This document shows, piece by piece, positions 41,129 through 59,835 of a stretch of DNA of 64,000 nt (positions are counted from its first letter, which is position 1; the number at the start of each line of letters is the position of its first letter). Position numbers and translations under genes: made by a program. Source of the stretch: Microbacterium luteolum (GTDB taxonomy: Bacteria; Actinomycetota; Actinomycetes; Actinomycetales; Microbacteriaceae); contig NZ_BAAAUN010000001.1 of NCBI RefSeq assembly GCF_039533965.1, forward strand, positions 2,888,950-2,952,949, given 5' to 3'. A model generated the notes under the pieces. It saw only the letters and a program-made list of their open reading frames with translations. It was not told the DNA's origin and did not search any database.

Positions 41129-41183
41129 GCTCATCTCCGATCTCTTCTTCTCATCCCTGCGGCGACCTGACGAGGCGAGCACC

Positions 41184-41819: not shown

Positions 41820-41821
41820 GA

Positions 41822-42442: not shown

Positions 42443-42507
42443 GGCGGTTCTCCCTTGAATCTCATGGCGGTAATACCGAGATTCTGGACGCGTCGGACCG
42501 AAATACT

Positions 42508-42578: not shown

Positions 42579-42598
42579 GAAATCGATTTCGCTACATT
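42579..42598 (+). promoter_or_regulatory. GAAATCGATTTC operator with -10 box, site 1
   Basis: Perfect 12-bp palindrome GAAATCGATTTC (42579-42590) followed by the -10-like TACATT (42593-42598) and 6 nt to the ATG at 42605. A LacI-type repressor bound here would cover the promoter. The transcript would be leaderless. Confidence 0.75.
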
Positions 42599-42604
42599 CG
42601 GGGC

Positions 42605-43753
42605 ATGCATCGTCGCACAGCATCATCCCGGCGCGCCCTGGTCGCCGCATCGGTCGTCGTCGTTCTCGGGTTGCCCGGATGCGCGGGAGGCGGACCGCCG
42701 TCCGTCGATCCGGACCCCGACAAGCCCTTCGTGCTGGAGGGCGTCTCGAAGCTCACCGAGATCGCGCAGCTCACCGGTCCGGATGCCATGAACGACACGG
42801 CATCCTTCTCCGTCGCCGGTACGGATCTGGGCTCGATGGTGAACGTCGGCGACAAGACGTTCTTCTTCTTCGGCGACACGTTCGGCGAGCGGGACCCCGA
42901 GTCCATCGGCGGCCAGGGCGGCTTCTGGAGGTCGAACGTCGCGGCCTGGACGACCGACGACGACCCCACGGACGGCATCGACTTCGAGGGGTGGGTGGAA
43001 GACGACATCGGGCTCGCGGGAGCGCTGATCGAAGGCGATCACGACGCCAACGGGGCCGGCGGAGAGGTGACGAAGATCCCCACTTGCGGCTTCGCGATCG
43101 GCGAGACGATCTATGTGTCGTACATGTCGGTGAAGTTCTGGGGCGAGCCCGGCGCCTGGGATGCGAACCGCTCCGCGCTCATCGTCTCGCGGGATGACGG
43201 CAGGACCTGGTCCCCGGTCGACGGCGTCGAGTGGCCAGGGGACTCGAACTTCATCCAGTTCGCGACCGCGCAGGTGACGGAGGGCGGCGAGGACTGGATC
43301 TACTTCTGGTCGATCCCCTCGGGCCGGTTCGGCGGCGTCCAGCTGATGCGCGTGCGCGCCACGGAGGCGGCGGTCGAGGACCCGTCGGCGTACTCGTACT
43401 TCGCCGGGCTCGACGGCGATGCGCCGCAGTGGAGCGACGAGATGAGGGATGCGGAGACGATCGTCGACGGCACTATCGGCGAGCTCTCGGTGATGTGGTC
43501 GACCTATCTCGAACGCTGGATCATGACCTATTCGGATGCCGGCAGCGCCTACATCCGCGAGGGCATCACGCCGTGGGGACCATGGGGTGAGGCCATCGAG
43601 CTCGTGCCCGGATCGGAGTATCCGGGGCTGTATTCGCCGTACCTGAATCCGCGCTACGTCACGGAGGACGGTCGCCGCATCCACTTCACGCTCTCGCTCT
43701 GGGATCCGTACAACGTGTTCTGGTTCTCGGCCGACCTGGAACGCGCCGACTGA
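42605..43753 (+). CDS. DUF4185 (GH183) lipoprotein, probable endo-D-arabinanase
   Basis: A 382-residue lipoprotein: signal RALVAASVVVVLGLPGC with lipobox LPGC, then a five-bladed-propeller-like DUF4185 domain with the conserved KTFFFFGDTFGE, LIVSRDDGRTWSPV and SPYLNPRYV segments. DUF4185 proteins are glycoside hydrolase family 183, shown to be endo-acting on mycobacterial D-arabinan, including enzymes from Microbacterium. The cell-surface location fits the first cut of arabinogalactan or lipoarabinomannan. Regulated by the palindrome immediately upstream. Activity is inferred from family and context. Confidence 0.83.
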   Translation: MHRRTASSRRALVAASVVVVLGLPGCAGGGPPSVDPDPDKPFVLEGVSKLTEIAQLTGPDAMNDTASFSVAGTDLGSMVNVGDKTFFFFGDTFGERDPESIGGQGGFWRSNVAAWTTDDDPTDGIDFEGWVEDDIGLAGALIEGDHDANGAGGEVTKIPTCGFAIGETIYVSYMSVKFWGEPGAWDANRSALIVSRDDGRTWSPVDGVEWPGDSNFIQFATAQVTEGGEDWIYFWSIPSGRFGGVQLMRVRATEAAVEDPSAYSYFAGLDGDAPQWSDEMRDAETIVDGTIGELSVMWSTYLERWIMTYSDAGSAYIREGITPWGPWGEAIELVPGSEYPGLYSPYLNPRYVTEDGRRIHFTLSLWDPYNVFWFSADLERAD

Positions 43754-43775
43754 AATATCGCGAGGCCTGTTTCCC

Positions 43776-43804
43776 TTGCGCATGAAATCGATTTCGCCTA
43801 CTCT
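43776..43804 (+). promoter_or_regulatory. Promoter with central GAAATCGATTTC operator, site 2
   Basis: TTGCGC (43776-43781) and TACTCT (43799-43804), 17 bp apart, with the perfect palindrome GAAATCGATTTC at 43784-43795 filling the spacer. Drives the ABC importer and second GH183 gene. Confidence 0.8.
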
Positions 43805-43883
43805 GGCGCTACCCGATCACTGAGGATCGATCGGCCTGCACAGCAGCGACTCGATGAGGAGTCTGTTCCCTGAGGAGGAACCA

Positions 43884-45251
43884 ATGAGAATCACCACCCG
43901 CACCCGACGCACAGCGATCGCCGCCCTCGGCGCGCTGGCGGTCGGCTCTCTGCTCGCCGCCTGCGGCGCGGGCACCCCCGGTGGAACGGCAGGAGGCGAC
44001 GGCGGCGAAGACGGCGTCACCACGATCCAGTTCTGGCACCGGAGCTTCACGCCGGTCGAGAACGAGTGGTACGCCGACATCGTCAAGCAGTTCAACAAGT
44101 CGCAGGACGAGATCAAGGTCGTCGACACCGAGGTTCCCGCCGACGCGTGGGATCAGAAGATGAAGGCCGCGCAGGCCGCAGGCAAGGCGCCGGACGTCTA
44201 CACCAGCTCCGCCAACCTGCTCGATCTGGTGAACGCCGGATCCGTGCACGAGCTCGACTCGATCGTCTCGAAGGACGCGCTCGGCGAGATCATGGACACC
44301 GCCACCTCGATCTCCGAGGTCGAGGGCAAGCACTACGCCTACCCGCTGCTGCTCGAACCGCAGACCGTGCTGTTCTGGAACACCGACATGCTCGATGCCG
44401 CGGGCGTCGACTCCTCCGCGGCTCCCGAGACCTGGGACGACCTGCTCGCCGCCTGCGCGAAGATCCAGCCGACGCTCGCCGAGGGCCAGTACTGCATCTC
44501 GCCCGCGCAGGACGCCGTGACCATGGCCTGGTCGACCGTGGGCCAGCAGTACAACTTCGCCGGGCACCTCGCACTCACGGACGACTGGTCCGCGCCCGAC
44601 ATCGACAACGACGGCTACCGCGATCTCATGACGCAGTACAAGGAGCTGTGGGACAAGGGATACATGCCCAAGCAGCCGCTCGCCGCGTACGTCGGCGGGG
44701 AGGACTTCGGCCAGCAGAAGGTGGCCTTCAAGGTCTCCGGCTCGTGGATGATGTCGGAGATCGGCTCCGACTACGCCGACCTGCTCGCCAAGACGGGCGT
44801 CGGCGCATTCCCGAGCGCTTCCGGTGCCGACGGCCGCACGGCCACGACCATGGGCAACTTCACCTGGGTGGTCGACGCCAAGAGCAAGAACGCGGAGGCC
44901 GCAGGGAAGTTCCTCGAGTGGGCGATCGCCGGCGACCCCGAGAACCTCGTGCCGTTCTTCGTCGACACCCAATTCACCAAGGTGCCTGTCCGCCAGTCGG
45001 TGCAGGATGCGGTCGCGGCGAGCCAGGAAGCCGCCGACGCCCCGTGGTCGAGCATCATCGTCGACGACATCGCGCCCGACGCGATCGCCGGCGCCACCTA
45101 CCCGTGGGACGTGAACCTCGCCGTGGGCACCGCCATGGAGTCCGTGATGAAGGGCTCGGCGTCGGCGGACGACGCGATCAACACGGCCAAGGCCGCGATC
45201 CAGACGGTCATCGACCGTGACGGGCTGCCCGACAAGGCGCCCAAGAACTGA
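43884..45251 (+). CDS. Sugar-binding lipoprotein of CUT1 ABC importer
   Basis: A 455-residue extracellular solute-binding protein family 1 lipoprotein. Signal TAIAALGALAVGSLLAAC with lipobox LAAC; mature part TTIQFWHRSFTPVENEWYADIVKQFN, PDVYTSSANLLDLVNAG, KHYAYPLLLEPQTVLFWNTDML. Such proteins capture oligosaccharides. GAGGAGG stands just before the ATG at 43884. Two permease genes follow; no ATPase is encoded, so a shared MsiK-type ATPase from elsewhere is expected. Predicted cargo: D-arabino-oligosaccharides made by the flanking GH183 enzymes. Confidence 0.88.
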   Translation: MRITTRTRRTAIAALGALAVGSLLAACGAGTPGGTAGGDGGEDGVTTIQFWHRSFTPVENEWYADIVKQFNKSQDEIKVVDTEVPADAWDQKMKAAQAAGKAPDVYTSSANLLDLVNAGSVHELDSIVSKDALGEIMDTATSISEVEGKHYAYPLLLEPQTVLFWNTDMLDAAGVDSSAAPETWDDLLAACAKIQPTLAEGQYCISPAQDAVTMAWSTVGQQYNFAGHLALTDDWSAPDIDNDGYRDLMTQYKELWDKGYMPKQPLAAYVGGEDFGQQKVAFKVSGSWMMSEIGSDYADLLAKTGVGAFPSASGADGRTATTMGNFTWVVDAKSKNAEAAGKFLEWAIAGDPENLVPFFVDTQFTKVPVRQSVQDAVAASQEAADAPWSSIIVDDIAPDAIAGATYPWDVNLAVGTAMESVMKGSASADDAINTAKAAIQTVIDRDGLPDKAPKN

Positions 45252-45258
45252 TATCGCT

Positions 45259-45297
45259 CGCTGTCCGGGGGCCGGGGGTCCCGGTCCCCGGACAGCG
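45259..45297 (+). terminator. 12-bp perfect hairpin between binding-protein and permease genes
   Basis: CGCTGTCCGGGG (45259-45270) pairs exactly with 45286-45297; the 15-nt loop is itself GC rich. In sugar ABC operons such hairpins after the binding-protein gene stabilise its mRNA and reduce read-through, giving excess binding protein over permease. Confidence 0.75.
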
Positions 45298-45326
45298 TCG
45301 CACCCTGAGATCGCGACGAGGTGGAA

Positions 45327-46253
45327 ATGGCCAGTCAGGCTGTGCAGGAACGCCGGGAGATCCGGCAGAGGAAGAACCGGTACCGGTACCGGGACAACAG
45401 AACCGCCTACTGGTTCCTGGTGCCGCTGGTGGTACTGCTGGGGATCTTCGTGATCTGGCCCGCCATCTACGCCGGATACCTGTCCTTCCAGGACTGGAGC
45501 TTCTACAAGGACCCGGAATTCGTCGGCATCCGCAACTATGCCAACGTGCTGAAGGACCCGCTGTTCATCGCCACGATCGGTCGCGGCTTCCTGTTCGTGC
45601 TGATGACCGTGCCGGCGATGCTGATCCTGGCGTTCCTGTTCGCCAGCCTCGTCGTCGCGGTGTCGCGTCGGGCGGCGAGCATCCTCAAGGTCAGCATCTA
45701 CATCCCGACCATCATCTCCGCGGTTATCACGTCGATCATCTTCGTCCTGATCTACAACTACTCCGGCGGTCTGCTCAACGCCTTCCTCGGCGTCTTCGGA
45801 GTCGACCCGATCGCCTGGATCGGCGACCCGAAATGGGCGCTCCTCGCGGTCGCCGTCCCCGCCATCTGGCTGGGCATGGGACTCACCTCGCTGATCATGG
45901 TCGCGGCCATGGTCGACATCCCCACCGAGTACTACGAGGCGGCGGCGATGGAGGGCGCGAACTGGGGGCAGAAGACCGCGTACATCACGATCCCGCAGAT
46001 GAAGAACGTGGTGCTGTACCTGCTGATCACCGGGTTCGTCGCGGCGATCCAGCAGTTCGAGCTCCCCCTCGTGATGACCCAGGGCGGTCCGCTCGACTCG
46101 ACGACCCTGCCGAACCTCTTCATCTTCAACCACTTCCGCAACGACGTGAACGTCGGCTACTCGATCGCGGCCGCTCTGCTGCTGTTCGTGGTGCTGGGGA
46201 CCATCTCGGCCCTCGTGTTCAAGTTCGTCAACTCCGAAAGGCTGGTGGACTGA
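45327..46253 (+). CDS. CUT1 sugar permease (MalF-like)
   Basis: A 308-residue permease with six membrane segments, starting AYWFLVPLVVLLGIFVIWPAIYAGYLSFQDW. The coupling (EAA) loop is EYYEAAAMEGANWGQKTAYITIPQMKNV. Partner of the next permease and of the binding protein upstream. I chose ATG at 45327, preceded by GAGGTGGAA; GTG at 45321 is in frame. Confidence 0.88.
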   Translation: MASQAVQERREIRQRKNRYRYRDNRTAYWFLVPLVVLLGIFVIWPAIYAGYLSFQDWSFYKDPEFVGIRNYANVLKDPLFIATIGRGFLFVLMTVPAMLILAFLFASLVVAVSRRAASILKVSIYIPTIISAVITSIIFVLIYNYSGGLLNAFLGVFGVDPIAWIGDPKWALLAVAVPAIWLGMGLTSLIMVAAMVDIPTEYYEAAAMEGANWGQKTAYITIPQMKNVVLYLLITGFVAAIQQFELPLVMTQGGPLDSTTLPNLFIFNHFRNDVNVGYSIAAALLLFVVLGTISALVFKFVNSERLVD

Positions 46254-46254
46254 G

Positions 46255-47151
46255 ATGGCCGTCATGCAGGAGACCACCCGCATCGTCCTCGCCGGCAAGG
46301 AGCCGCGGGCACAGCGCAGAGCGCCGCGCACGGCCGGCGGCTGGCTCGTCGTCATCGGCAAGGTGATCCTCGGCGCGATCTTCGTGGTCGCGTCGCTGTT
46401 CCCCCTCGCGTGGATGGTGATCGCCGGGTTCAAGTCGAAGACCGAGGTCGTCGAGACGCCGTTCCAGTTCTTCCCCGAGGTCTGGTTGTGGCAGAACTAC
46501 GCGCAGATCCTCGCCGACCCCACGTTCCTGCAGACGCTGCTGTGGACGTTCTTCGGCGCCGTCCTGTTCACGGTCGGCAGCCTGGCGGTCAACTCCCTCG
46601 CCGCCTATGCCTTCGCCCGCCTGGACTTCCGATTCAAGGGCACCATCTGGGCCATCGTGATCACGACGATGTTCATCCCCGGCATGACGATCCTGCTCAC
46701 GAGCTTCATCGTCGTGACCCGCCTGTCGATGCTCGACACCCTCGCCGTGCTCGTGATCCCCGGGCTCGCCAGCGCAGGCATGGTCTTCTTCATCCGGCAG
46801 TTCTACCTGAACATCCCGAAGAGCCTCGAGGAGGCCGCGATGCTCGACGGCTGCGGCCGGTTCGGCATCTTCGTCCGCATCTTCCTGCCGCTGTCCAAGC
46901 CGCCCTTCGTCGTCATGGGCATCACGGCGTTCCTCGCCTACTGGAACTCGTACGTCTGGCCGATCCTGACCATCACCTCGCCCGAGCGCTTCGTCCTGCA
47001 GCAGTACCTCGCGACCTTCCGCTCCGAGCGCAGCACCGAGCTCGGACTCCTGATGGCGGGGTCCGTGCTGGCCGCGGCCCCCGTGATCATCCTGTTCCTG
47101 ATCTTCCAGCGCCAGATCATCGGCAACATCAAGATGGCGGGTCTCAAGTAG
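46255..47151 (+). CDS. CUT1 sugar permease (MalG-like)
   Basis: A 298-residue permease. Six helices from VVIGKVILGAIFVVASLFPLAWMVIAGFKS onward; EAA loop KSLEEAAMLDGCGRFGIFVRIFLPLSKP; ends with the usual QRQIIGNIKMAGLK. One base separates it from the MalF-like stop. Completes the membrane part of the importer. Confidence 0.9.
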   Translation: MAVMQETTRIVLAGKEPRAQRRAPRTAGGWLVVIGKVILGAIFVVASLFPLAWMVIAGFKSKTEVVETPFQFFPEVWLWQNYAQILADPTFLQTLLWTFFGAVLFTVGSLAVNSLAAYAFARLDFRFKGTIWAIVITTMFIPGMTILLTSFIVVTRLSMLDTLAVLVIPGLASAGMVFFIRQFYLNIPKSLEEAAMLDGCGRFGIFVRIFLPLSKPPFVVMGITAFLAYWNSYVWPILTITSPERFVLQQYLATFRSERSTELGLLMAGSVLAAAPVIILFLIFQRQIIGNIKMAGLK

Positions 47152-47162
47152 AGGAGAGGTCG

Positions 47163-48263
47163 ATGGAGACCGAGAACACGCACGGCGGCGGAATCAGTCG
47201 CCGAGGAGTACTGCAGGGAGCCGCCGTGCTCGGCGCCGCGTTCGTCGCGGCGACGGCACCGGCGCCACCGGCATCCGCCGCCGGACTGACGGTGACGAGG
47301 ATCAAGGTGCTCGCGGGTACCCAGAGCCCGCTGCAGTACGGGGTGGGCGCGACCGACCTCGGCATCCCGGCCCGCACGCCGGACGGGCGGATGCTGTTCG
47401 TCTTCGGCGACACATGGGCCGACACTGTGGGAGGCGCGAACTGGCGCTCGCCGGTGGCGCTGTACTCGTCGACGACGAACCTCAACGCCGGTGTGACCTT
47501 CAACGGATGCGGTGGAGCGGGCGCGAACACGCAGGGGGTGGCGCCACAGCTCTGGTATTACCCGCACGACGCGTACTTCACGACCGTGATCCCATCCGAC
47601 GTGATCACGATCGGATCGCGGATGTACCTGCACGCGATCGTGAACGGTCCGCAGTTCGGCGCGGTGCGCTGGACGGAGCTGTGGATGTCGGACGACAACG
47701 GCGCCACCTGGCAGCACACCGGGCTGCAGTTCCCCGCCGACATGGCGGGCGGGAAGTTCCAGTGCATCACGTGGGGTCTGGGCAGCGACGGCTACGTGTA
47801 CATCTACGGCACCGGATTCCAGCGCGACAAGGGCATCGTGCTCTACCGGGTGCCGTCGAACAACATGACCACGCTGTCCGCCTATCAGCCCTGGGGTTTC
47901 GCGAACGGATCCTGGGGCTGGGGAAAGCCCGTGACCGAGGTGCTGCCCGGAGGGTTCGGCGAGATGTGCCTCCGGCCCCTCGGCGGCAAATGGATCCTCA
48001 CCTGCTTCAACGCCCCGGAGTACCGGATCGACGCGATGGTGCTGAACACCCCGACCGACAACCTGTACACGGCGACCAAGACGACGCTGCTGCACGGCAC
48101 CGAGTGGGGGACGGAGGATGCCTCGCACGTGGCGCAGCTGTACGGCGGATACATCATCCCCGGGTCCACGCTGTCCGATCTGCACCTCAGCGTGAGCCAG
48201 TGGCACACCGGGAACAACAGCGTCTATCACTCGGAGCAGTTCCGGGTGCAGGGACTCGTGTAG
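47163..48263 (+). CDS. Tat-exported DUF4185 (GH183) protein, probable endo-D-arabinanase
   Basis: A 366-residue secreted protein. The signal ISRRGVLQGAAVLGAAFVAATA contains a twin arginine. The domain begins RIKVLAGTQSPLQYGVGATDLGIPARTPDGRMLFVFGDTWAD, with GDTW matching the DUF4185 core, then RWTELWMSDDNGATWQHTG and WILTCFNAPEYRIDAMVL. Second GH183-type enzyme of the locus, in the same operon as the importer, AGAGG shortly before the ATG. Different export routes (lipoprotein and Tat) suggest the two enzymes differ in location or substrate, such as arabinogalactan versus lipoarabinomannan. Activity inferred. Confidence 0.82.
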   Translation: METENTHGGGISRRGVLQGAAVLGAAFVAATAPAPPASAAGLTVTRIKVLAGTQSPLQYGVGATDLGIPARTPDGRMLFVFGDTWADTVGGANWRSPVALYSSTTNLNAGVTFNGCGGAGANTQGVAPQLWYYPHDAYFTTVIPSDVITIGSRMYLHAIVNGPQFGAVRWTELWMSDDNGATWQHTGLQFPADMAGGKFQCITWGLGSDGYVYIYGTGFQRDKGIVLYRVPSNNMTTLSAYQPWGFANGSWGWGKPVTEVLPGGFGEMCLRPLGGKWILTCFNAPEYRIDAMVLNTPTDNLYTATKTTLLHGTEWGTEDASHVAQLYGGYIIPGSTLSDLHLSVSQWHTGNNSVYHSEQFRVQGLV

Positions 48264-48278
48264 GCATCCGCCCGCGGA

Positions 48279-49121
48279 TCAGAGCTCGACGAACCCCGAC
48301 ACGACCACGTCGGCACGGCCGCCCACCCATACCTGATCGGCCTCCTGGCTGATCAGGATCCGTCCGCGGCGTCCGATGGCCGTGCCCTGTGCGGCGAGGT
48401 ACGGGGCGCGGGCGCGACCGGTCGAGAGCAGCCACTCCGCCGCCGCGGCGTTCAGGCTGCCGGTCACGGGGTCCTCCCGCAGCGGGCCGTCGCCGTCGGT
48501 GAAGAAGGCGCGCAGCTCGAACGCGGTCTCGGCTCCTTCCGAGTGAGGGCCGATCACGCCGATGTCCCAGACTCCGGGGTGACCTGCGACATCCGGGCGG
48601 AGGTCGAGAACCGTCTCGGCGCTGTCCAGCAGCAGACCGACCCAGCCGGGGCCGTTGTCGAGCCACTCGGCGTCGACGAGCTTTTCGCGGCTGATGCCCA
48701 GGATCTCGACCAGCTCGGTGACGAGCTCGGGTGCGACGGGGCCGGAGCGCGTCCGCGGCGGCGAGGCGAAGGCCAGTCGGTCGCCGTTCACCCGCACGGG
48801 GATCAGGCCGGCGGGGCACTGCTGGATCACCGTGCCGGGGGTCGACGGCAGCCCGCCGGCATCCAGCCACGCCCTGGTCGTCCCGAGCGTCGGATGGCCC
48901 GCGAACGGGAGCTCGGTGCTCAGGCTGAAGATGCGTACGCGGTAGTCGGCTCCCGGCTCGGTCGGAGGCAGCACGAAGGTGCATTCGGAGAGGTTCGTCC
49001 ACACCGAGAACCGGCGCAGGTCATCGTCGTCGAGGCCCTCCGCATCGAGAACGACGGCGACGGGGTTGCCCGTGCCCGGGGTGTCGCCGAACACATCGAC
49101 CTGTCGGAATCCGCGCTGCAT
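48279..49121 (-). CDS. PhzF-family isomerase/epimerase-like protein
   Basis: A 280-residue PhzF-fold protein: FRQVDVFGDTPGTGNPVAVVLDAEGL at the start, TNLSECTFVLPP with the catalytic-type glutamate, FSLSTELPFAGHPTLGTTRAWL and the C-terminal REDPVTGSLNAAAAEWL. All are strong PhzF signatures. PhzF enzymes isomerise dihydro-anthranilate derivatives, but most family members have unknown substrates. It does not fit the D-arabinan pathway and looks like a bystander. ATG at 49121 chosen at the start of the conserved domain. Confidence 0.87.
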   Translation of the reverse strand: MQRGFRQVDVFGDTPGTGNPVAVVLDAEGLDDDDLRRFSVWTNLSECTFVLPPTEPGADYRVRIFSLSTELPFAGHPTLGTTRAWLDAGGLPSTPGTVIQQCPAGLIPVRVNGDRLAFASPPRTRSGPVAPELVTELVEILGISREKLVDAEWLDNGPGWVGLLLDSAETVLDLRPDVAGHPGVWDIGVIGPHSEGAETAFELRAFFTDGDGPLREDPVTGSLNAAAAEWLLSTGRARAPYLAAQGTAIGRRGRILISQEADQVWVGGRADVVVSGFVEL

Positions 49122-49245
49122 GTCTGGAGGATATCCGGTGGACGGAGCACTCAGCAGACGGAAAGCTCGCCTTCGTACGGTCGAAACAGGGAATGCCCCT
49201 GCTCCGCGCCTGGCGCGGTGTCCTGCCACGAAGGAACACCTCCTC

Positions 49246-49686
49246 ATGACGAACACCACCGCCCCCTCCGCAGCCACGTCGACGGGACTCCTCGTCCTCC
49301 GCGTCGTCGTCGGTGCGATCTTCGCCGCCCACGGCGCTCAGAAGATCTTCGAGTACACCCTGCCGGGCACGATCGGCAGCTTCGCGGGCATGGGGATCCC
49401 GTTGCCCGAGATCGCGGCACCGGTCGTCGCGTTCGTCGAACTCGTCGGCGGCATCCTGCTGATCGCCGGGTTCTTCACCCGCCCGGTGGGCATTCTCCTC
49501 GCCATCGACATGGCCGTCGCACTCGTCGCCGTTCACCTTCCCGCCGGGCTCTGGGTCGGCGAGGGCGGCTACGAGTTCGTGGCCGTGCTCGGCGTCGCGG
49601 CTCTCGCGCTCGCGTTCACCGGTGCGGGGAAGTTCTCGCTCGACCGCGCTCTGCTGCGCGGACGCGTCCCGGCCTGGATCGCCTGA
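49246..49686 (+). CDS. DoxX-family membrane protein
   Basis: A 146-residue protein with four helices: LLVLRVVVGAIFAAHGAQKIFEYT, then GMGIPLPEIAAPVVAFVELVGGILLIAGFFTRPVG, typical DoxX/SURF4-like. DoxX proteins are linked to redox or stress functions, with no defined reaction. AAGGAACACC precedes the ATG. Divergent from the PhzF gene, convergent with the GH172 gene. Probably unrelated to the sugar locus. Confidence 0.82.
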   Translation: MTNTTAPSAATSTGLLVLRVVVGAIFAAHGAQKIFEYTLPGTIGSFAGMGIPLPEIAAPVVAFVELVGGILLIAGFFTRPVGILLAIDMAVALVAVHLPAGLWVGEGGYEFVAVLGVAALALAFTGAGKFSLDRALLRGRVPAWIA

Positions 49687-49710
49687 GGATCGCAGGGCGC
49701 TCGGGCGGCC

Positions 49711-50844
<1,134 letters not shown>

Positions 50845-50851
50845 GGGCGCT

Positions 50852-50866
50852 AATGTAATCGATTTC
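50852..50866 (-). promoter_or_regulatory. GAAATCGATTAC operator overlapping the -10 box, site 3
   Basis: On the minus strand GAAATCGATTAC (one mismatch to the palindrome; 50866-50855) runs into the -10-like TACATT (50857-50852), followed 7 nt later by the GH172 ATG, so the transcript should be leaderless. It is also 81 bp upstream of the divergent LacI gene and could serve autoregulation. Confidence 0.7.
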
Positions 50867-50946
50867 AGCGCAGAACTCCAGAGATCGCGTGCGTGCGCGA
50901 TACTGTTGCTTCACGCCCGGCGCGACCGGGCAGGCAGTGAGGGTGC

Positions 50947-51930
50947 ATGGCCACGATCTACGACGTCGCAGAGCTCGCGGGAGTCTCTCCCGCGACGGTC
51001 TCGCGCGTCTTCAACGGCACGAGCGTGTCGGACGAGAAGGTCGCCGCCGTCCGGGATGCCGCGGAGAAGCTGAGCTTCACTCCGAACCGCACCGCGCGCA
51101 CGCTGCGCCGCCAGAGCTCCGAGGTGATCGCTCTCGTGATCCCGGACATCGAGAACCCCTACTTCACCGAGATGGCCCGCGGGGTCGAGGATGTCGCCTC
51201 CGAAGCCGGCTACTCGGTCGTGCTCTGCAACTCCGACGCCCAGATGGAGAAGGAGGCCACGTACCTCCGGATCGCGATCGCCGAGCACATGTCGGGCGTC
51301 ATCATCGCGACGGCCGACGAGGGCACCAAGCTCGACACCATCCTGGCGACCGGGCGACCCATCGTGGCTGTCGACCGGAGCACGACCTACGACATCGACG
51401 GCGTCGTGATGGCGAACCGCGCCGCCGGGACCTCGGCCACCAAAGACCTGATCGACGCCGGGTACCGTCGCATCGCCTACATCGGCGGCCCTGAGCACAT
51501 CGACACGGCGGCGGAGCGCGCGGCGGGATGGCGCACGGCGCTCGGCGCCGCGTATCCGGAGCTCGACCTCGATGCGCTGCAGCGATTCGAGACCTTCCGT
51601 GTCGACGGCGGCCGCGCCGCCATGGAAGACCTCCTCTCGCTGCCGGAACCGCCGGACGCCGTGGTCGCCGGAAACAACCTCATCGGCGTCGGCGCGATCC
51701 AGGTTCTCACCGAGCACGGGCTCACACCGCCCCAGGTCGGCGTCGCGGTGATCGGCTCGCTGCCCTTCACCACGCTGTCGCCCAGCGCGGTGACCGTCGT
51801 GCGGCTTCCCGCCCGGCACATGGGCGTGACCGCCGCGCGCATGCTGCTCGAGCGCATCAAGGGAGACAAGCAGCCGGCGCGGACCGTCGTGCTGCGCAAC
51901 GAGGTGCAGCCAGCGAGCCCGCGGGCCTGA
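50947..51930 (+). CDS. LacI-family regulator of the D-arabinan locus
   Basis: A 327-residue LacI/GalR repressor: TIYDVAELAGVSPATVSRVFNGTSVSDEKVAAV is the HTH and TARTLRRQSSEVIALVIPDIENPYFTEMARG leads into the sugar-binding domain. The hinge-helix region that normally reads L-A-x-x-L is degenerate as TLRRQ. Its divergent promoter region holds one of four GAAATCGATTTC-type palindromes, which have the central CG typical of LacI operators. Most likely it represses all four units until an arabinan breakdown product binds. TACTGT at 50901-50906 may be its -10 box. Confidence 0.9.
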   Translation: MATIYDVAELAGVSPATVSRVFNGTSVSDEKVAAVRDAAEKLSFTPNRTARTLRRQSSEVIALVIPDIENPYFTEMARGVEDVASEAGYSVVLCNSDAQMEKEATYLRIAIAEHMSGVIIATADEGTKLDTILATGRPIVAVDRSTTYDIDGVVMANRAAGTSATKDLIDAGYRRIAYIGGPEHIDTAAERAAGWRTALGAAYPELDLDALQRFETFRVDGGRAAMEDLLSLPEPPDAVVAGNNLIGVGAIQVLTEHGLTPPQVGVAVIGSLPFTTLSPSAVTVVRLPARHMGVTAARMLLERIKGDKQPARTVVLRNEVQPASPRA

Positions 51931-51946
51931 GCGGCCTTCGCTCAGG
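51926..51946. terminator. Bidirectional hairpin terminator
   Basis: CCTGAGC (51926-51932), 7-nt loop, GCTCAGG (51940-51946): a perfect 7-bp stem that spans the stop codons of the convergent LacI and coiled-coil genes. Confidence 0.6.
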
Positions 51947-52511
51947 AAGAACCCCAGAAGCGGGTCGCCAGATTCGCGACCTCCTTGTCGAGGTCTTCGA
52001 GGCGCCGGTCGATCGATCCGAGTCGCGTGTCGACCTTCGCATCCATCGCGTCGAAGCGGGCGTCGAATTTCGCGTCCATGGCCTCGAAGCGGGCGTCGAA
52101 TTTCGCATCCATGGCCTCGAAGCGGGCGTCGAATTTCGCATCCATGGCCTCGAAGCGGGCGTCGAACACTCCCTGAAGTCCTTCGAGGCGGGCTTCGATC
52201 TCTCGGCGGAATGATGTGAGCGTGCTGTCGTTCTGGCGGGTGAGCGAGGTGAGCGTGCTCTCGTTCTGGTGGGAGAGCGAGGCGAGCGTGCTGTCGTTCT
52301 GGCGGGTGAGCGAGGTGAGCGTGATCTCGTTCTGGCGGGTGAGCGAGGCGAGCGTGCTCTCGTTCTGGTGGGAGAGCGAGGCGAGCGTGCTCTCGTTCTG
52401 GTGGGAGAGCACCGTCAGTGTCTTGTGACCCTGTCGCAGCAGCAGAGAGATCACGCCGATCATCACGGCGGCGAACACGCCGATCAAAGTCCACACCTGC
52501 GGTTCGGTCAT
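51942..52511 (-). CDS. Membrane-anchored protein with two sets of 11-residue repeats
   Basis: About 189 residues. One N-terminal helix (WTLIGVFAAVMIGVISLLL) is followed by six 11-residue repeats of the type L-[ST]-[HR]-Q-N-[ED]-x-T-L-[AT]-S. After a short link (FRREIEARLEGLQGVFD) come four repeats of ARFEAMDAKFD type, then VDTRLGSIDRRLEDLDKEVANL. Hendecads predict a long coiled coil, right-handed or straight. The DNA repeats have a 33-bp period (about 52036-52167 and 52216-52413), so copy number can change without a frameshift. Function unknown; I recognise no enzyme domain. ATG at 52511 has GGAG 8 nt upstream; ATG at 52517 is too close to it. Confidence 0.7.
   Translation of the reverse strand: MTEPQVWTLIGVFAAVMIGVISLLLRQGHKTLTVLSHQNESTLASLSHQNESTLASLTRQNEITLTSLTRQNDSTLASLSHQNESTLTSLTRQNDSTLTSFRREIEARLEGLQGVFDARFEAMDAKFDARFEAMDAKFDARFEAMDAKFDARFDAMDAKVDTRLGSIDRRLEDLDKEVANLATRFWGSS
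52036..52167 (-). repeat. Four 33-bp tandem repeats (ARFEAMDAKFD)
   Basis: Nearly identical 33-bp units; the two central ones differ by a base or none. Each encodes one hendecad. Confidence 0.8.
52216..52413 (-). repeat. Six 33-bp tandem repeats (L-S-H-Q-N-E-S-T-L-A-S type)
   Basis: Second, unrelated 33-bp array in the same gene, with alternating SHQNES and TRQNDS variants. Confidence 0.8.
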
Positions 52512-52638
52512 CTCCATGGCTCCATTCTGCGAACGAAAGGCCAGATTGTCACGGTATTCCGGGTGCCGACCGTCCGAATCCCACGAGCTGTGGACAACAC
52601 GAATCGCGCAAGTTCGGTGCAGCAAGAGTGGCAGCCGC

Positions 52639-52668
52639 TTGCGCCTTGAAATCGATTTCGCGTACAGT
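52639..52668 (+). promoter_or_regulatory. Promoter with GAAATCGATTTC operator, site 4
   Basis: TTGCGC (52639-52644), 18 bp, TACAGT (52663-52668), with the perfect palindrome at 52648-52659 in the spacer. Drives the kinase-GH116-isomerase operon. The rest of the 52512-52715 gap holds only the leader with AAGGAGG before the ATG. Confidence 0.8.
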
Positions 52669-52715
52669 GACGATCAGGTTTCAGGTTCCGCAGTTCGGGT
52701 TTCAAGGAGGACGCC

Positions 52716-54209
52716 ATGCGCTGCACCCTCGGGGTGGACATCGGCACGTCCAGCAGCAAGGGCGTGCTGGTCGCCGACGACGGCGTGATCCTGGCGACCG
52801 CGACGCGTTCGCACGACGTCAGCCGCCCGCGCACGGGCTGGGTGGAGATGGACGGGCGCGTGTGGTGGGACGAGTTCGTCGCGATCGTGCGCGAGCTGCT
52901 CGCCGCGGCACCCGCCGCCGAGGTCGCGGGTGTCGGCGTGAGCGGCATGGGGCCCTGCATCCTGCTCGCGGACGACGCGGACGAGCCCGTGCGCCCCGCG
53001 ATCCTGTACGGCGTGGACACCCGATCGGGGGCGCAGATCGAGCGGATGACGGCAGAGCTGGGCGTCGACGAGATCGCGCGGATCGGCGGCTCGACGCTCA
53101 CCTCGCAGGCGGGCGGTCCGAAGCTGGCCTGGGTCGCCGAGGAGGATCCCGACGCCTGGGCGCGTGCACGACGCCTGTTCATGCCTGCCTCGTGGCTCGC
53201 CCGCAGGCTCACCGGCGCCTATGTCCTCGACCATCAGTCGGCGAGTCAGGTCTCCCCGCTGTACGACATCGAGAACGAGCGCTGGCACGAGCCGTGGTGG
53301 GAGAGGTACGCAGGCCGCATCGAGCAGCCGTCGCTCGCCTGGGCGGGCGATGTCGCCGGAAAGGTGACCGCGGACGCGGCATCCGCCACCGGCATTCCCG
53401 CGGGAACCGCGGTCATCACCGGCACGATCGACGCGTGGACCGAGGCGGTGAGCGTGGGTGCGCACGAGGTCGGCGACCTGATGCTGATGTACGGAACGAC
53501 CATGTTCCTCGTGGCCACGGGTGCCGAGACGCTGCGCACCCCGTCGATGTGGACCACCGCCGGGGCCTTCGCCGGCACGCGGAACCTGGCCGGCGGTCTC
53601 TCCACCTCGGGCGCCCTGACGGCTTGGCTGAAGGACCTCACCGGCGCGGACTACCCCGAGCTTCTCGCGGATGCCGAGGCGTCAGGACCCGGAGCTGCGG
53701 GACTGCTTTTGCTGCCCTACTTCGCGGGGGAGCGCACCCCGATCCAGGATCCGGATGCCCGCGGCGTGATCGCGGGGCTCACGCTCGAGCACACGTGCGG
53801 TGACCTCTACCGCGCGGCGCTCGAGGCGACGGCCCTCGGCGTGCGGCACAACGTCGAGACCATGCGCGCGGCCGGGGCCGACATCCGGCGCATCGTCGCG
53901 GTCGGCGGCGGCACGCAGGGCCGGCTGTGGATGCAGGTGGTCTCCGACGTGACCGGGCTCGTCCAGGAGGTGCCGGCGACGACCATCGGCGCGAGCTACG
54001 GTGCGGCCTTCCTCGCGGCGACCGCGATCGCCGCTGCGGGGGAGGCCCCCGCGATCACCGATTGGAACCCGATCATCGAGACCATCCGCCCTGACCCGGC
54101 GCTCCGCACCTTCTACGACACCCTCTTCGACCGCTACGTGCGGCTGTACGAGGGGTCGAAGGACGTGGTGCACGAGCTGGCCGCCGCGCAGCGGGGAGCA
54201 TCCGCATGA
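52716..54209 (+). CDS. FGGY-family pentulose kinase, probable D-ribulokinase
   Basis: A 497-residue FGGY carbohydrate kinase. N-terminal ATP-phosphate motif LGVDIGTSSSKGVLVADDG, substrate region GVGVSGMGPCILLAD and ILYGVDTRSGAQIERM, C-terminal motif IVAVGGGTQGRLWMQVVSDVTGL. Xylulokinase-like by eye, but in an operon with an isomerase that should make D-ribulose, phosphorylation of D-ribulose to D-ribulose 5-phosphate is the more consistent role. D-xylulose kinase activity cannot be excluded. AAGGAGG lies about 6 nt before the ATG. Confidence 0.85.
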   Translation: MRCTLGVDIGTSSSKGVLVADDGVILATATRSHDVSRPRTGWVEMDGRVWWDEFVAIVRELLAAAPAAEVAGVGVSGMGPCILLADDADEPVRPAILYGVDTRSGAQIERMTAELGVDEIARIGGSTLTSQAGGPKLAWVAEEDPDAWARARRLFMPASWLARRLTGAYVLDHQSASQVSPLYDIENERWHEPWWERYAGRIEQPSLAWAGDVAGKVTADAASATGIPAGTAVITGTIDAWTEAVSVGAHEVGDLMLMYGTTMFLVATGAETLRTPSMWTTAGAFAGTRNLAGGLSTSGALTAWLKDLTGADYPELLADAEASGPGAAGLLLLPYFAGERTPIQDPDARGVIAGLTLEHTCGDLYRAALEATALGVRHNVETMRAAGADIRRIVAVGGGTQGRLWMQVVSDVTGLVQEVPATTIGASYGAAFLAATAIAAAGEAPAITDWNPIIETIRPDPALRTFYDTLFDRYVRLYEGSKDVVHELAAAQRGASA

Positions 54210-56854
54210 ACCGGCGTGCCCGCGGCATCCCGCACACCTCGCAGGCGACGGCGTTCCCGCTCGGCGGCATCGGCACCGGCAACGTCTCGATCGGCGCCCG
54301 CGGCGAGCTGCGCGACTGGGAGTTCGAGAACCTGCCGGACAAGGGGCGGCGCAACCCGCACTCGTTCTTCGCGATCCATGCCGCGCCCGAGGGCGGCACT
54401 CCGGTGACCCGCGTGCTCGAGGCGCGGCTCACCGGTCGTCACGATGCGGATGCCGGCTACGCCTTCGACCAGCTGGCCGGTCTCCCGCGTCTCGACGGCG
54501 CCACCCTGCACGGCGAGTACCCGGTCGTCGACGTCGACTTCACCGACGCCGTCCTGCCGGTCGAGGTCTCGCTTCACGCCTTCACCCCCCTCGTGCCCCT
54601 CGACGCCGACGACTCCGGGATCCCGGCCGCCGTGCTGCGCTACCGCGTGACCAACCCCGGTGCGGTGCCCGTCGCCGTCACGGTGGTGGGCAGCGTCTCG
54701 CACACCGCCGGGCGCGGAGCCGCCGGACCCGACGCCCCGTGGGGGATGCGCGCGACGCAGACAGTGCGGTGGCGCGACGACGGCGACGTGCGCGGCCTCG
54801 ACTTCGGCATCGACCTCCCGCAGGACGACCCCGGCTACGGCACACTGAGCCTCACCACGACGGATGCCGCCACCACGGCGAAGCCCCAATGGGTCACGAG
54901 CTACTGGCCCGACGGAGCGCGCCTGTTCTGGAACGACCTGACCGACGACGGGCTGCTCGCCCCGGAGCCCCGGCTCACCCTCGAGGATCGTCCCCGCGGG
55001 CTGTTCGCCGAGCTCGACGAGAGTGGGTCCCTGAGCTCGTCGAAGGGCGCTCCGCTCACCGAGGAGCAGATGCTCGCGAAGCTCCCCCGCCTGCGCACCG
55101 GCTCCCTCGGCGTCGTCCACACCCTCGCCCCGGGCGAGGCCCGCGATTTCGAGTTCGTGCTGGCGTGGAGCTTCCCGAACCGCCGGCGCGGCTGGCACGG
55201 CCACATCGTGTTCGCGGATCCTCCTGAGGACGGCCCGCTGTCGCCCATAGTCCGCAACCACTACGCGACCCTCTGGGCCGACGCCTGGTCGGCGGCGACG
55301 CATCTGCACCGTGAGCTCCCGGCCCTCGAAGGGGCGACCGATGCCTTCGTCGAGGCGCTGTACGGGAGCAGCCTCGACCCGGTGCTGGTCGACGCGATCG
55401 GGGCGAACATCGCCGCCGCGCGCTCGACGACGGGGTTCGTGCTCGAGTCCCCGAACCCCGAGCTGGGGGAGGGGCCGGTGTTCGCGGCCTGGGAGGGATC
55501 GTTCGATCACGGCGGCTCCTGCGAGGGCACCTGCACGCACGTCTGGTCGTACGCGCAGACGCTCGCCTGGCTGTTCCCCTCGCTCGAGCGGAGCGCGCGC
55601 CGGGTCGAGTACCTGCTCGAGACCGATGGCGAGGGAGCGCAGAAATTCCGCGGCAACCGCATCTTCGGCGGACCCGCGTGGTTCATGGCTCCGGCTGTCG
55701 ACGGACAGCTCGGCACGCTGCTGCGCCTGCACCGGGAATGGCGGTTCAGCGGCGACGACGAGTTCCTGCGCGAGCTGTGGCCCGCGGCATCCCGCACCCT
55801 CGACTACGCGATCCGCGAATGGGACCGCGACGGCGACGGCCTGCTCGACGGCGAGATGCACAACACCTACGACATCGAGTTCCACGGCGCCGAGCCGCTC
55901 GCCAACGGCGTGTACCTGGCGGCGCTCCGCGCCGGCGTCCGGATGGCGGAGCACCTGGGCGAGCAGGAGCGGGCCCGCGCGTGGTCGACGCGCGCCGACC
56001 ACGTCGCCGCGGCCATGGACGAGACGCTCTGGAACGGCGAGTACTACCGCCAGGTGATCGATGATGCCGACGCGCACCGCTACCAGTACGGCGAGGGGGT
56101 GCTCTCCGACCAGCTGCTGGGGCAGTTCCACGCCTACGTGAACGGCCTCGGGCACATCCTGCCCGCGGAGCGCGTCGGCTCCGCGCTCGCCGCGATCGTG
56201 GCGCACAACCACCGCGACGACCTCTCGGCGCATGAGAGCACGCAGCGCGTCTACGCGCTGAACGACGAGGGCGGGCTGCTGCTCGCGTCCTGGCCGCACG
56301 GCGGACGACCCGCGATCCCGTTCGTGTACTCGGACGAGGTGTGGACCGGCGTCGAGCATCAGGTCGCGGCATCCCTCCTCTTCGCCGGCCGCTACGACGA
56401 CGCCCTGCTCGTCGAACGGACGCTGCGTGCCCGCTACGACGGGGGCCACCGCAGTCCGTGGAACGAGATCGAGTGCGGCAACCACTACGCCCGCTCGCTC
56501 GCGTCGTGGGCGCTGCTGCTCGGTGCGACGGGCGCGCAGTGGGATGCGCCGACGGGAGTGCTGTCGTTCGCGCCCTGCGCTTCGACAAGCTCAGCGACCC
56601 AGGGTGGAGGCTCAGCGACCCAGGGTGGAGGCTCAGGGACCCAGGGGGCCGAGAGGTTCCTGTTCACCACGGGCACGGGCTGGGGACGCGTCGAGATCGA
56701 CCGCGATGCCCTCACCCTCCACCTCGACGGCGGCGAGCTCGACATCGCCGACCTGCAGCTGCACGGCCGGAGCCTCGGCCGCGGCATCCGACTCCGAGCG
56801 AGCGAATCCCAGCGGTTCCCGCTCACCACGACCCCAACACCGGAGGCATCATGA
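54206..56854 (+). CDS. GH116-like glycosidase, probable exo-beta-D-arabinofuranosidase
   Basis: An 882-residue cytoplasmic glycosidase with an N-terminal beta domain (AFPLGGIGTGNVSIGARGELRDWEF, typical of GH116 and bile-acid beta-glucosidase GBA2) and a C-terminal alpha6/alpha6 toroid (THVWSYAQTLAWLFPSLER, LLDGEMHNTYDIEFHG with the acid/base-type HNTYD, and RSPWNEIECGNHYARSL). A GH116 enzyme from Microbacterium acts on beta-D-arabinofuranosides at arabinan termini, which fits this locus. Overlaps the kinase stop (ATGA). Two dispersed repeats are embedded: SGSLSSSKGA at 55024-55048 and an expanded copy at 56577-56648. Confidence 0.85.
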   Translation: MNRRARGIPHTSQATAFPLGGIGTGNVSIGARGELRDWEFENLPDKGRRNPHSFFAIHAAPEGGTPVTRVLEARLTGRHDADAGYAFDQLAGLPRLDGATLHGEYPVVDVDFTDAVLPVEVSLHAFTPLVPLDADDSGIPAAVLRYRVTNPGAVPVAVTVVGSVSHTAGRGAAGPDAPWGMRATQTVRWRDDGDVRGLDFGIDLPQDDPGYGTLSLTTTDAATTAKPQWVTSYWPDGARLFWNDLTDDGLLAPEPRLTLEDRPRGLFAELDESGSLSSSKGAPLTEEQMLAKLPRLRTGSLGVVHTLAPGEARDFEFVLAWSFPNRRRGWHGHIVFADPPEDGPLSPIVRNHYATLWADAWSAATHLHRELPALEGATDAFVEALYGSSLDPVLVDAIGANIAAARSTTGFVLESPNPELGEGPVFAAWEGSFDHGGSCEGTCTHVWSYAQTLAWLFPSLERSARRVEYLLETDGEGAQKFRGNRIFGGPAWFMAPAVDGQLGTLLRLHREWRFSGDDEFLRELWPAASRTLDYAIREWDRDGDGLLDGEMHNTYDIEFHGAEPLANGVYLAALRAGVRMAEHLGEQERARAWSTRADHVAAAMDETLWNGEYYRQVIDDADAHRYQYGEGVLSDQLLGQFHAYVNGLGHILPAERVGSALAAIVAHNHRDDLSAHESTQRVYALNDEGGLLLASWPHGGRPAIPFVYSDEVWTGVEHQVAASLLFAGRYDDALLVERTLRARYDGGHRSPWNEIECGNHYARSLASWALLLGATGAQWDAPTGVLSFAPCASTSSATQGGGSATQGGGSGTQGAERFLFTTGTGWGRVEIDRDALTLHLDGGELDIADLQLHGRSLGRGIRLRASESQRFPLTTTPTPEAS
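55024..55048 (+). repeat. In-frame dispersed repeat in the GH116 gene
   Basis: TGGGTCCCTGAGCTCGTCGA followed by AGGGC, same sense as the gene, peptide GSLSSSKG. Confidence 0.8.
56577..56648 (+). repeat. Reverse-orientation repeat with 21-bp tandem expansion
   Basis: A GCGCTTCGACAAGCTCAGCG copy followed by 21-bp units at 56590-56610, 56611-56631 and a partial one to 56648. Encodes a low-complexity linker (SATQGGG repeated). The 21-bp expansion mirrors the one in cobA but uses a different sequence. Confidence 0.8.
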
Positions 56855-58485
56855 CCACCTACACCCTGCCGGCCCCGGCATCCCGCCCGGCGTCTGCACC
56901 GAAGACCGCCTACCTGATCGCCTCCGGCGACCTGCGCGAATCCGCCAACACGGGCGGCTGGCCCGTGCAGGTCGAACTCGAAGCCGGCGTCACCGGTGTC
57001 TTCAACGACCTCGGCTGGACCGTCATCCGCGCCAACGAGGTCGACCCCGCGACCGGCCACGGCTTCATCTCCAGCCAGCGCATGGGCCTCGAGGTCTTCA
57101 AGAACATCCCGACGGATGCTCCGCTCATCGTCGCCGAGGCCGTGTGGCAGTACTCGCACCATGTGCTCGCTGGTCTGCGCTCGCATCAGGGGCCGATTCT
57201 CACGGTCGCGAACTTCGCGGGTGACTGGCCGGGACTCGTCGGACTGCTCGGCCTCAACGCCGGACTGACCAAGATGGACAAGCCGTACGCGTCGATCTGG
57301 TCGGTCGACTTCAGCGACGACTGGTTCAAGGCCGGCATCAAGGAGTGGACCGAGACCGGGTCGATCACGCACGACGCCTCGCACGTGCGGGCCCTGCCCG
57401 AGCTGCCGGACAGCCCCGAGAAGCAGCTCGGGGAGGCGCTCGCCGCCGAGCTGCTCGCCGAGAAGGCCATCATCGGCGTCTTCGACGAAGGCTGCATGGG
57501 CATGTACAACGCGATCTTCGACGACGAGCTGCTGAACAAGACCGGCATCTACAAGGAGCGCCTGTCGCAGTCGGCCCTGTACGCCGAGATGCTCAAGGTC
57601 TCCGAAGGCGAGGCGGATGCCGCCTACGACTGGCTGATCGACGCCGGAATGACATTCCAGTACGGCGAGGATGCCGCGACCGAGCTCACCCGCGAGCAGG
57701 TTCAGTGGCAGCTGAAGATGTACATCGCCGCCCTCCGCATCGCCGATGACTTCGGGCTCGACGCGGTCGGCATCCAGTACCAGCAGGGTCTGAAGGACCT
57801 GGTGCCCGCATCCGATCTGGCCGAGGGCATCCTGAACTCCACCGAGCGCCCGCCGGTGACCTCGCGCGACGGGTCACGCGTGCTGCACGAGGGCCGCGCG
57901 TTCCCGCATTTCAATGAGGCCGACGAGGGCGTCGCGGTCGACGCGCTCGTGACCGACCGGGTCTGGCGCGCGATGGGGCTCGTGCCAGACAACACGCTGC
58001 ACGACGTGCGCTGGGGCGAGGACTTCGACGGGCAGTTCGTGTGGGTCTACGAGATCTCGGGCTCCGTGCCGGCCTCGCACCTGGGCGGATGGCAGAACGC
58101 CGAGGGCTGGCGTCAGGGGCACGTGTTCTTCCCCGCGGGCGGTGCGACGATCAACGGCGTCTCGAAGCCGGGCGAGATCGTGCTGTCGCGGGTCTTCATC
58201 GCCGACGGCATCCTGCAGGCCGACATCTTCCGGGCATCCGTCGTCGAGCTGCCGGCCGAGGAGACGCAGCGCCGCAAGGACGCCACCAACCCGGAGTGGC
58301 CGATCGCGCACGTGGTGCTGCACGGCATCTCGCGCGACCAGTTCATGGCGCGGCACAAGGCCAACCACGCCCAGCTCGTCTATGCCCCGGATGCCGAGAC
58401 CGCCGACAAGGCGCTGATCGCCAAGGCCGCGATGTTCGCGGGCATGGGCATCAAGGTCAACCTCGTGGGAGACGTCGCCGTCTGA
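56851..58485 (+). CDS. L-fucose/D-arabinose isomerase-like protein
   Basis: A 544-residue protein of the fucose/arabinose isomerase fold by general layout: an N-terminal Rossmann-like part (KTAYLIASGDLRESANTGGWPVQVELEAG), a central stretch VFDEGCMGMYNAIFDDELLNKTGIYKERLSQSALYAEM, AVGIQYQQGLKDLVPASDLAEGILNS, and a C-terminal domain. I recognise it as the actinobacterial fucose isomerase-labelled group rather than close E. coli FucI. L-fucose isomerases also convert D-arabinose to D-ribulose because the sugars share stereochemistry at C2-C4. Last gene of the operon (ATGA overlap), so D-arabinose isomerase is the predicted activity. Confidence in the exact reaction is moderate. Confidence 0.7.
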   Translation: MTTYTLPAPASRPASAPKTAYLIASGDLRESANTGGWPVQVELEAGVTGVFNDLGWTVIRANEVDPATGHGFISSQRMGLEVFKNIPTDAPLIVAEAVWQYSHHVLAGLRSHQGPILTVANFAGDWPGLVGLLGLNAGLTKMDKPYASIWSVDFSDDWFKAGIKEWTETGSITHDASHVRALPELPDSPEKQLGEALAAELLAEKAIIGVFDEGCMGMYNAIFDDELLNKTGIYKERLSQSALYAEMLKVSEGEADAAYDWLIDAGMTFQYGEDAATELTREQVQWQLKMYIAALRIADDFGLDAVGIQYQQGLKDLVPASDLAEGILNSTERPPVTSRDGSRVLHEGRAFPHFNEADEGVAVDALVTDRVWRAMGLVPDNTLHDVRWGEDFDGQFVWVYEISGSVPASHLGGWQNAEGWRQGHVFFPAGGATINGVSKPGEIVLSRVFIADGILQADIFRASVVELPAEETQRRKDATNPEWPIAHVVLHGISRDQFMARHKANHAQLVYAPDAETADKALIAKAAMFAGMGIKVNLVGDVAV

Positions 58486-59797: not shown

Positions 59798-59835
59798 TCC
59801 GCTGGTCGGCTGACCTTCCCGGTGAGTGATCAGCC
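59792..59835. terminator. Possible hairpin between GH18 and GH92 genes
   Basis: GGCTGATC (59792-59799) and GATCAGCC (59828-59835) are perfect complements flanking a 28-nt loop and span both stop codons of the convergent genes. Confidence 0.35.

Follow-up and report, generated by a model that had tools for sequence, protein, structure and literature searches.

Genes of the locus and their predicted functions

The 64,000-nucleotide stretch of Microbacterium luteolum DNA analyzed here (referred to as the window; the genome measures 4.14 megabases, Mb) holds at positions 42579..58485 a locus whose genes encode arabinan-degrading enzyme families, a sugar importer, an isomerase, a kinase and a LacI-family regulator. 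On the plus strand it begins with GH183a (42605..43753), an exported lipoprotein of family DUF4185 (Pfam E-value 6.7e-82; lipobox LPGC), followed by a solute-binding lipoprotein (SBP; Pfam SBP_bac_1/8, 43854..45251, with the likely ATG at 43884), two ATP-binding cassette (ABC) sugar permeases matching BPD_transp_1 (A, 45321..46253; B, 46255..47151) and a second DUF4185 protein, GH183b (47163..48263; 5.7e-69), with a twin-arginine-like signal. A DUF2961/GH172 protein lies on the minus strand (49711..50844; 1.9e-85), next to the divergent LacI-family regulator (50947..51930, plus strand; assigned by Pfam, with orthologues in relatives). Three further plus-strand genes encode an FGGY kinase (52716..54209), a GH116 protein (54206..56854) and an isomerase-fold protein (56851..58485); they overlap by 4 base pairs (bp) at both the kinase/GH116 and the GH116/isomerase junction and are arranged as one operon. 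The listed open reading frames (ORFs) of GH183b and of the isomerase extend further upstream, and the starts were set at 47163 and 56851. No third DUF4185 gene was found in the genome beside GH183a and GH183b. Altogether, this is very probably a D-arabinan utilization locus of the kind present in M. arabinogalactanolyticum, controlled by its LacI-family regulator via the palindrome GAAATCGATTTC, with predicted substrates in this strain.

The hydrolases match characterized enzymes. GH183a matches EndoMA1 (PDB 8hhv) at 157 bits, and the EndoMA1 residues D33/D51/R198/E243 correspond to D74/D91/R241/E293, so that both catalytic Asp, the third Glu and the Arg are kept. GH183b matches PDB 8an0 and chains that were deposited as EatA, and by motif it has the same four positions (D65/D83/R221/E267); the D/D/E catalytic set is present in both exported proteins, and gene order makes GH183b the probable orthologue of EndoMA2 (MIAR_33270). 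The GH172 protein matches the exo-alpha-D-arabinofuranosidase structure 8ic8 at 824 bits, keeps as N257 the Asn253 that excludes fructofuranose, and is 93–96% identical to proteins of M. oxydans, Microbacterium sp. EST19A and M. aerolatum. The GH116 protein matches the exo-beta-D-arabinofuranosidase structure 8ic6 at 1528 bits; its E430/H445/R482/D556 equal Glu431/His446/Arg483/Asp557 of that structure, which means that the nucleophile, the acid/base and two residues differing from GH116 beta-glucosidases are retained. Sequence comparison makes the GH172 protein a close orthologue of ExoMA1 and the GH116 protein one of ExoMA2, and both retain the published catalytic or specificity residues. 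Secretion signals were read by eye, which gave the lipobox of GH183a and the twin-arginine-like signal of GH183b and no signal peptide in GH172, GH116 or the isomerase.

The importer consists of one SBP and two permeases, and its ATPase gene is not in the locus; the TOBE_2 domain, as in MalK/UgpC-type ATPases, is found at three places elsewhere in the genome. The published polysaccharide utilization locus (PUL) of M. arabinogalactanolyticum is likewise given three transporter genes, one of them an SBP (MIAR_33290-33310), in the main text of Shimokawa et al. (2023; PMC10509167). A preliminary description had presented the locus as complete and including an importer. All the genes that it named were recovered by Pfam at nearly exact coordinates; the SBP and the permeases stand, while completeness was slightly overstated, as the stretch yielded no ATPase and no enzyme degrading galactan or mannan.

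The isomerase gene product is assigned mainly by fold. Structure prediction places the L-fucose/D-arabinose isomerase (FucI) fold over residues 186–544, i.e. the middle and C-terminal domains, and the fucose-isomerase C-domain is matched at 1.1e-08. The Mn2+ ligands of FucI are Glu337, Asp361 and His528, of which His528 aligns with the invariant H506 of the isomerase, and the same ANH motif appears in a weak match to 3a9r (E 0.067). Searches of PDB sequences with the isomerase alone gave no match, and hhalign of a 29-sequence isomerase profile against FucI gave a weak local match only. The protein probably converts D-arabinose to D-ribulose. As for the kinase, its NCBIfam scores are 300.1 bits for XylB (TIGR01312), 88 for FucK and at most 140 for the ribulokinase models. 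No FucA-like aldolase was found among the scanned locus genes, and phosphorylation at C5, giving D-ribulose 5-phosphate, therefore fits; the kinase is a probable D-ribulokinase.

The remaining genes of the locus are PhzF (48279-49277, minus strand; Pfam), DoxX (49246-49686; 3.2e-24) and a coiled-coil-like ORF (51942-52625, minus strand) with weak Pfam matches below the cut-off only. Upstream of the locus, at 39001-42465, minus-strand ORFs encode an F5/8-type C domain protein, a signal-peptidase-like protein and several products without Pfam match, perhaps a surface-structure cluster.

A shared predicted operator and its occurrence in relatives

The exact 12-bp palindrome GAAATCGATTTC occurs in three copies in the 4.14-Mb genome, all of them inside the locus. 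The first (42579..42590) lies 14 bp before the GH183a start, the second (43784..43795) 58 bp before the start of the SBP ORF, and the third (52648..52659) 56 bp before the kinase, heading the kinase-GH116-isomerase operon. Moreover, a degenerate copy with one mismatch, GTAATCGATTTC, is located at 50855..50866 in the divergent intergenic region of GH172 and lacI. The window's base composition predicts 0.017 exact copies in 4.14 Mb, and the reversed GAAATCGATTTC, used as control, has zero copies in the genome. At up to two mismatches the window contains 5 matches, against a shuffle mean of 1.00, with 5 reached in 1 of 100 shuffles. The operator linkage proposed in the preliminary description is thus borne out by these copies.

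The operator follows its regulator in other genomes. We analyzed 80 named loci with up to 10 kilobases (kb) of flank. In 30 of them LacI is at least 45% identical; 26 of these contain the exact operator (47 copies in 613 kb), and the other four (L046, L048, L086 and L101) each hold a one-mismatch copy. Among the other 50 loci the exact operator occurs in two (2 copies in 863 kb). None of 119 other palindromes obtained by permuting the half-site is present in the 30 LacI-positive loci or the window. Outside the 12 bp, two positions stand out among 50 sites: the base that follows is A in 44 of them, and position -5 is T in 38. The palindrome before the genes of the locus and its conservation are seen in the sequences, while its binding by LacI, the repression at GAAATCGATTTC and the inducer are what we infer from these patterns.

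In the proposed mechanism, the two exported GH183 endo-D-arabinanases would cut arabinogalactan or lipoarabinomannan, and the ABC importer, with an ATPase borrowed from elsewhere in the genome, would take up the arabino-oligosaccharides. The cytoplasmic exo-enzymes GH172 (alpha) and GH116 (beta) would then free D-arabinose, which the FucI-fold isomerase would convert to D-ribulose and the XylB-like kinase to D-ribulose 5-phosphate, an intermediate entering the pentose phosphate pathway. Bound to the three exact copies of GAAATCGATTTC, which head GH183a, the SBP operon and the kinase-GH116-isomerase operon, the LacI-family repressor would silence these genes; at the copy between GH172 and lacI it would bind less tightly. 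D-arabinose or a derivative would probably lift the repression. The route from D-arabinan over D-arabinose and D-ribulose to D-ribulose 5-phosphate had been suggested in the preliminary description and is well supported by the hydrolase residues, the isomerase fold and the shared operators. Families, key residues, signals, fold and operator conservation are all read from sequence or structure prediction.

We further surveyed 198 genomes of the genus and found the operator in 71, the isomerase in 93 and GH116 (E <= 1e-100) in 41. The isomerase accompanies GH116 in all 41 genomes, including G531 with a GH116 of 37% identity, and the operator does so in 39; the two genomes lacking it are 79% and 76% complete. 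The operator is also present in 31 of the 52 genomes having the isomerase without GH116 at this threshold, and in only 1 of the 105 isomerase-negative genomes. The gene set itself recurs in relatives: GH172, isomerase, kinase and LacI come together, each at 150 bits or more, in 22 of the 80 named loci, and in 14 of these GH116 reaches this score too. In six of the 12 Streptomyces loci (L057, L059, L062, L066, L075 and L089) a kinase-isomerase pair neighbours GH172, and an exact operator immediately precedes its kinase. Searching 398 genomes of the family for GH172 gave matches at E <= 1e-60 in 24. Among loci L060-L108 (Bacillota, Chloroflexota and others) GH172 is 56–62% identical, and in 34 of these 49 loci GH183, GH116, isomerase, kinase and LacI all stay under 150 bits; the GH172 substrate there may therefore not be D-arabinan.

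Twenty further stretches, 19 around an isomerase and one around an extra operator, can be divided into several types. First, L122 and L124-L128 combine LacI and the operator with kinase and isomerase, and the 15–17 kb examined in each case are free of GH183, GH172 and GH116; neighbours in these hydrolase-free modules include DHDPS-family proteins (L122, L126, L128), TctA transporters (L122, L125, L126) and a PfkB kinase (L124). Second, the isomerase of L129-L133 comes without an exact operator, whether or not kinase and LacI accompany it. Third, GH172, a GH183 and a divergent GH116 (33–38% identical) are found in L135, L136 and L138, from genomes without a GH116 match at E <= 1e-100, and in L139, from G531; an apparently different GH116 subgroup occupies the same place in these D-arabinan loci.

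Extra operators extend the pattern. In G585 (L149:4710-8536) and G569 (L150:4513-8315) an exact copy precedes a three-gene monosaccharide importer of RbsA/RbsC/RbsB type, which fits a pentose as inducer and suggests that uptake of free D-arabinose is under the same control. In G490 an exact copy lies 42 bp before a GH127-like hydrolase gene (L134:3435-5447), far from the main locus, making this gene a possible new regulon member. G574 and G479 have a copy before an SBP gene, in the same gene string as a DHDPS-family protein and a short-chain dehydrogenase in G574 and a short-chain dehydrogenase in G479, hinting at an oxidative side branch. Two copies depart from the pattern. The third copy of G574 (L151) has a class-V aminotransferase gene on one side and an enolase-superfamily gene on the other; the only copy of G509 (L153), an isomerase-negative genome, adjoins no recognizable sugar gene. 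On the whole, we lean slightly towards regarding GAAATCGATTTC and LacI as a dedicated, old D-arabinose regulon of Micrococcales and Streptomyces, with a hydrolase-free LacI-kinase-isomerase core to which GH183, GH172, GH116, one GH127-like enzyme and oligo- or monosaccharide importers were recruited piecemeal. On that reading the operator string could serve as a genome-wide probe for undiscovered enzymes acting on D-arabinose polymers.

Alternative readings of the sugar and of the flanking genes

Several observations weigh against the D-arabinan reading. Isomerase residues 1–185 fall outside the FucI match, the whole-chain superposition on FucI is poor (TM-score about 0.5, root-mean-square deviation 23), and only one of the three FucI metal ligands is placed confidently; sequence alignment could not place Glu337 and Asp361, for which the helix/strand order, read by eye, points to the invariant E356 and D385. 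The nearest model of the kinase is XylB, yet its score is below the curated cut-off of 380.25, and D-xylulose stays among the possible substrates. Furthermore, the exact operator is missing in 23 of the 93 isomerase-positive genomes, and the two GH183 genes downstream of GH172 in genome G498 (compared below) have no good operator of their own. Finally, the 52 of 93 isomerase-positive genomes without a GH116 match at E <= 1e-100 comprise at least three with a divergent GH116 and others without an arabinan enzyme in the stretch examined, so that the first substrate of the module may be a free sugar, L-fucose included.

On one rival reading the isomerase-kinase pair serves L-fucose, or another sugar of the same C2-C4 configuration, D-arabinose is a side substrate and the hydrolases were added beside the pair. 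Sources name the isomerase-type protein fucose isomerase, FucI enzymes accept both sugars, and LacI-kinase-isomerase modules exist in stretches without an arabinan enzyme. We consider this unlikely, given that the scanned locus genes include no FucA-like aldolase, that the kinase has 88 bits to FucK versus 300 to XylB, that the overlapping kinase, GH116 and isomerase genes form one apparent operon, and that D-arabinose induces the locus in M. arabinogalactanolyticum (main text of PMC10509167).

The kinase might instead be a D-xylulokinase, in a locus that also handles xylose or D-arabitol-type pentoses. XylB is its best NCBIfam match, and its top PDB matches are annotated as FGGY kinase, xylulokinase and xylulose kinase. 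However, two kinases elsewhere in the genome exceed the XylB cut-off (394.9 and 392.5 bits), whereas the locus kinase reaches 299.9 in the same genome-wide search and therefore looks dedicated to something else; the kinase-isomerase pair is also kept in many relatives, among them several Streptomyces, and the D-xylulokinase reading is improbable.

Downstream of the locus lie an Endo-H-like GH18 gene (58592-59797, directly adjacent; EndoH model 357.5 against a cut-off of 300 bits) and a GH92 alpha-mannosidase of 1279 amino acids (59830-63669; Pfam). A further SBP and a GH38 alpha-mannosidase are found beyond the window (L109:2865-4211 and L109:9991-12984). That these genes belong to a larger locus for whole lipoarabinomannan (mannan plus arabinan) or glycoproteins has little probability: the EndoH score above cut-off and the mannosidases speak for it, and EndoH and GH92 adjoin the isomerase in 3 of the 20 stretches (L123, L138 and L140), but neither has a match in the 80 named loci and no exact operator occurs past 52648 within the window. 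As regular parts of the locus the two were accordingly rejected. A GH92 fragment is also present in L122 and L135. Endo-H chemistry points to N-glycans, and the GH18, GH92, SBP and GH38 genes look like a separate high-mannose N-glycan locus.

Comparison with known D-arabinan and L-fucose systems

The FucI-FucK-FucA route of E. coli for L-fucose and D-arabinose has the isomerase fold in common with the window; in contrast, the window has a XylB-like rather than FucK-like kinase, no aldolase found in the locus, and a LacI-type regulator instead of FucR. A second system is PUL42 of Dysgonomonas gadei, whose importer type presumably differs from that of the window. According to Al-Jourani et al. 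(2023; PMC10115798), a predicted fucose isomerase is highly abundant in D. gadei on D-arabinan, and PUL42, like the window, has DUF4185/GH183 and GH172 (DUF2961) enzymes; unlike the window, it is a Bacteroidota PUL with three GH172 proteins.

The PUL of M. arabinogalactanolyticum comprises four GH183, GH172, GH116, a putative ABC transporter, isomerase and kinase, and quantitative polymerase chain reaction indicated induction by D-arabinose and mycobacterial cell-wall extract, strong for all four GH183 genes (Shimokawa et al. 2023, main text of PMC10509167). Legends in the same article cover related clusters in other bacteria (Fig. 9a) and a scheme to D-ribulose 5-phosphate (Fig. 9b and 10). 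The preliminary description regarded the combination of uptake and isomerase-kinase steps in one locus as new; this is ruled out, since PMC10509167 and PMC10115798 precede it, and the former already has the locus type, the importer, the D-arabinose induction and the scheme. Neither GAAATCGATTTC nor a LacI/operator link for D-arabinan loci was found in the literature searched, a body of text outside which figures, supplements and most subscription papers fall, and the main text of PMC10509167 uses neither the word LacI nor the word operator. Only the LacI/operator-defined regulon would be an addition, a modest and testable prediction. If confirmed, the 12-bp operator would explain how the system is regulated and offer an inexpensive way to find more D-arabinose-related enzymes in other actinobacteria.

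Genome G498 encodes the ExoMA2 stretch with 100% identity over 199 amino acids, and we therefore take it as M. arabinogalactanolyticum. Its gene order, with best-segment identities to the window, is isomerase (89%), GH116 (77%), kinase (82%), operator, LacI (80%), one-mismatch operator, GH172 (92%), short-chain dehydrogenase, two further GH183, GH183b (88%), permeases (87/85%), SBP (73%), operator, GH183a (73%) and operator. We dropped the idea that the imperfect operator explains mild GH172 induction: GH172 of G498 has an imperfect site too, and such a rule is not claimed because all four GH183 genes are strongly induced, two of them without a better site.

Families, gene order, compartments, proposed pathway and operator places are the same in both loci. 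Of the four GH183 genes of G498, the window lacks the middle pair between GH172 and GH183b (by gene order MIAR_33220 and EndoMA1), which leaves two, and its locus is a smaller copy of the G498 locus. This suggests that an EndoMA2-type enzyme together with one GH183 of unknown activity may suffice. D-arabinan is a hallmark of mycobacterial-type cell walls, and its degrading enzyme families were identified only recently, in papers of 2023; as the locus repeats a published system, its main value is that of an independent, smaller member.
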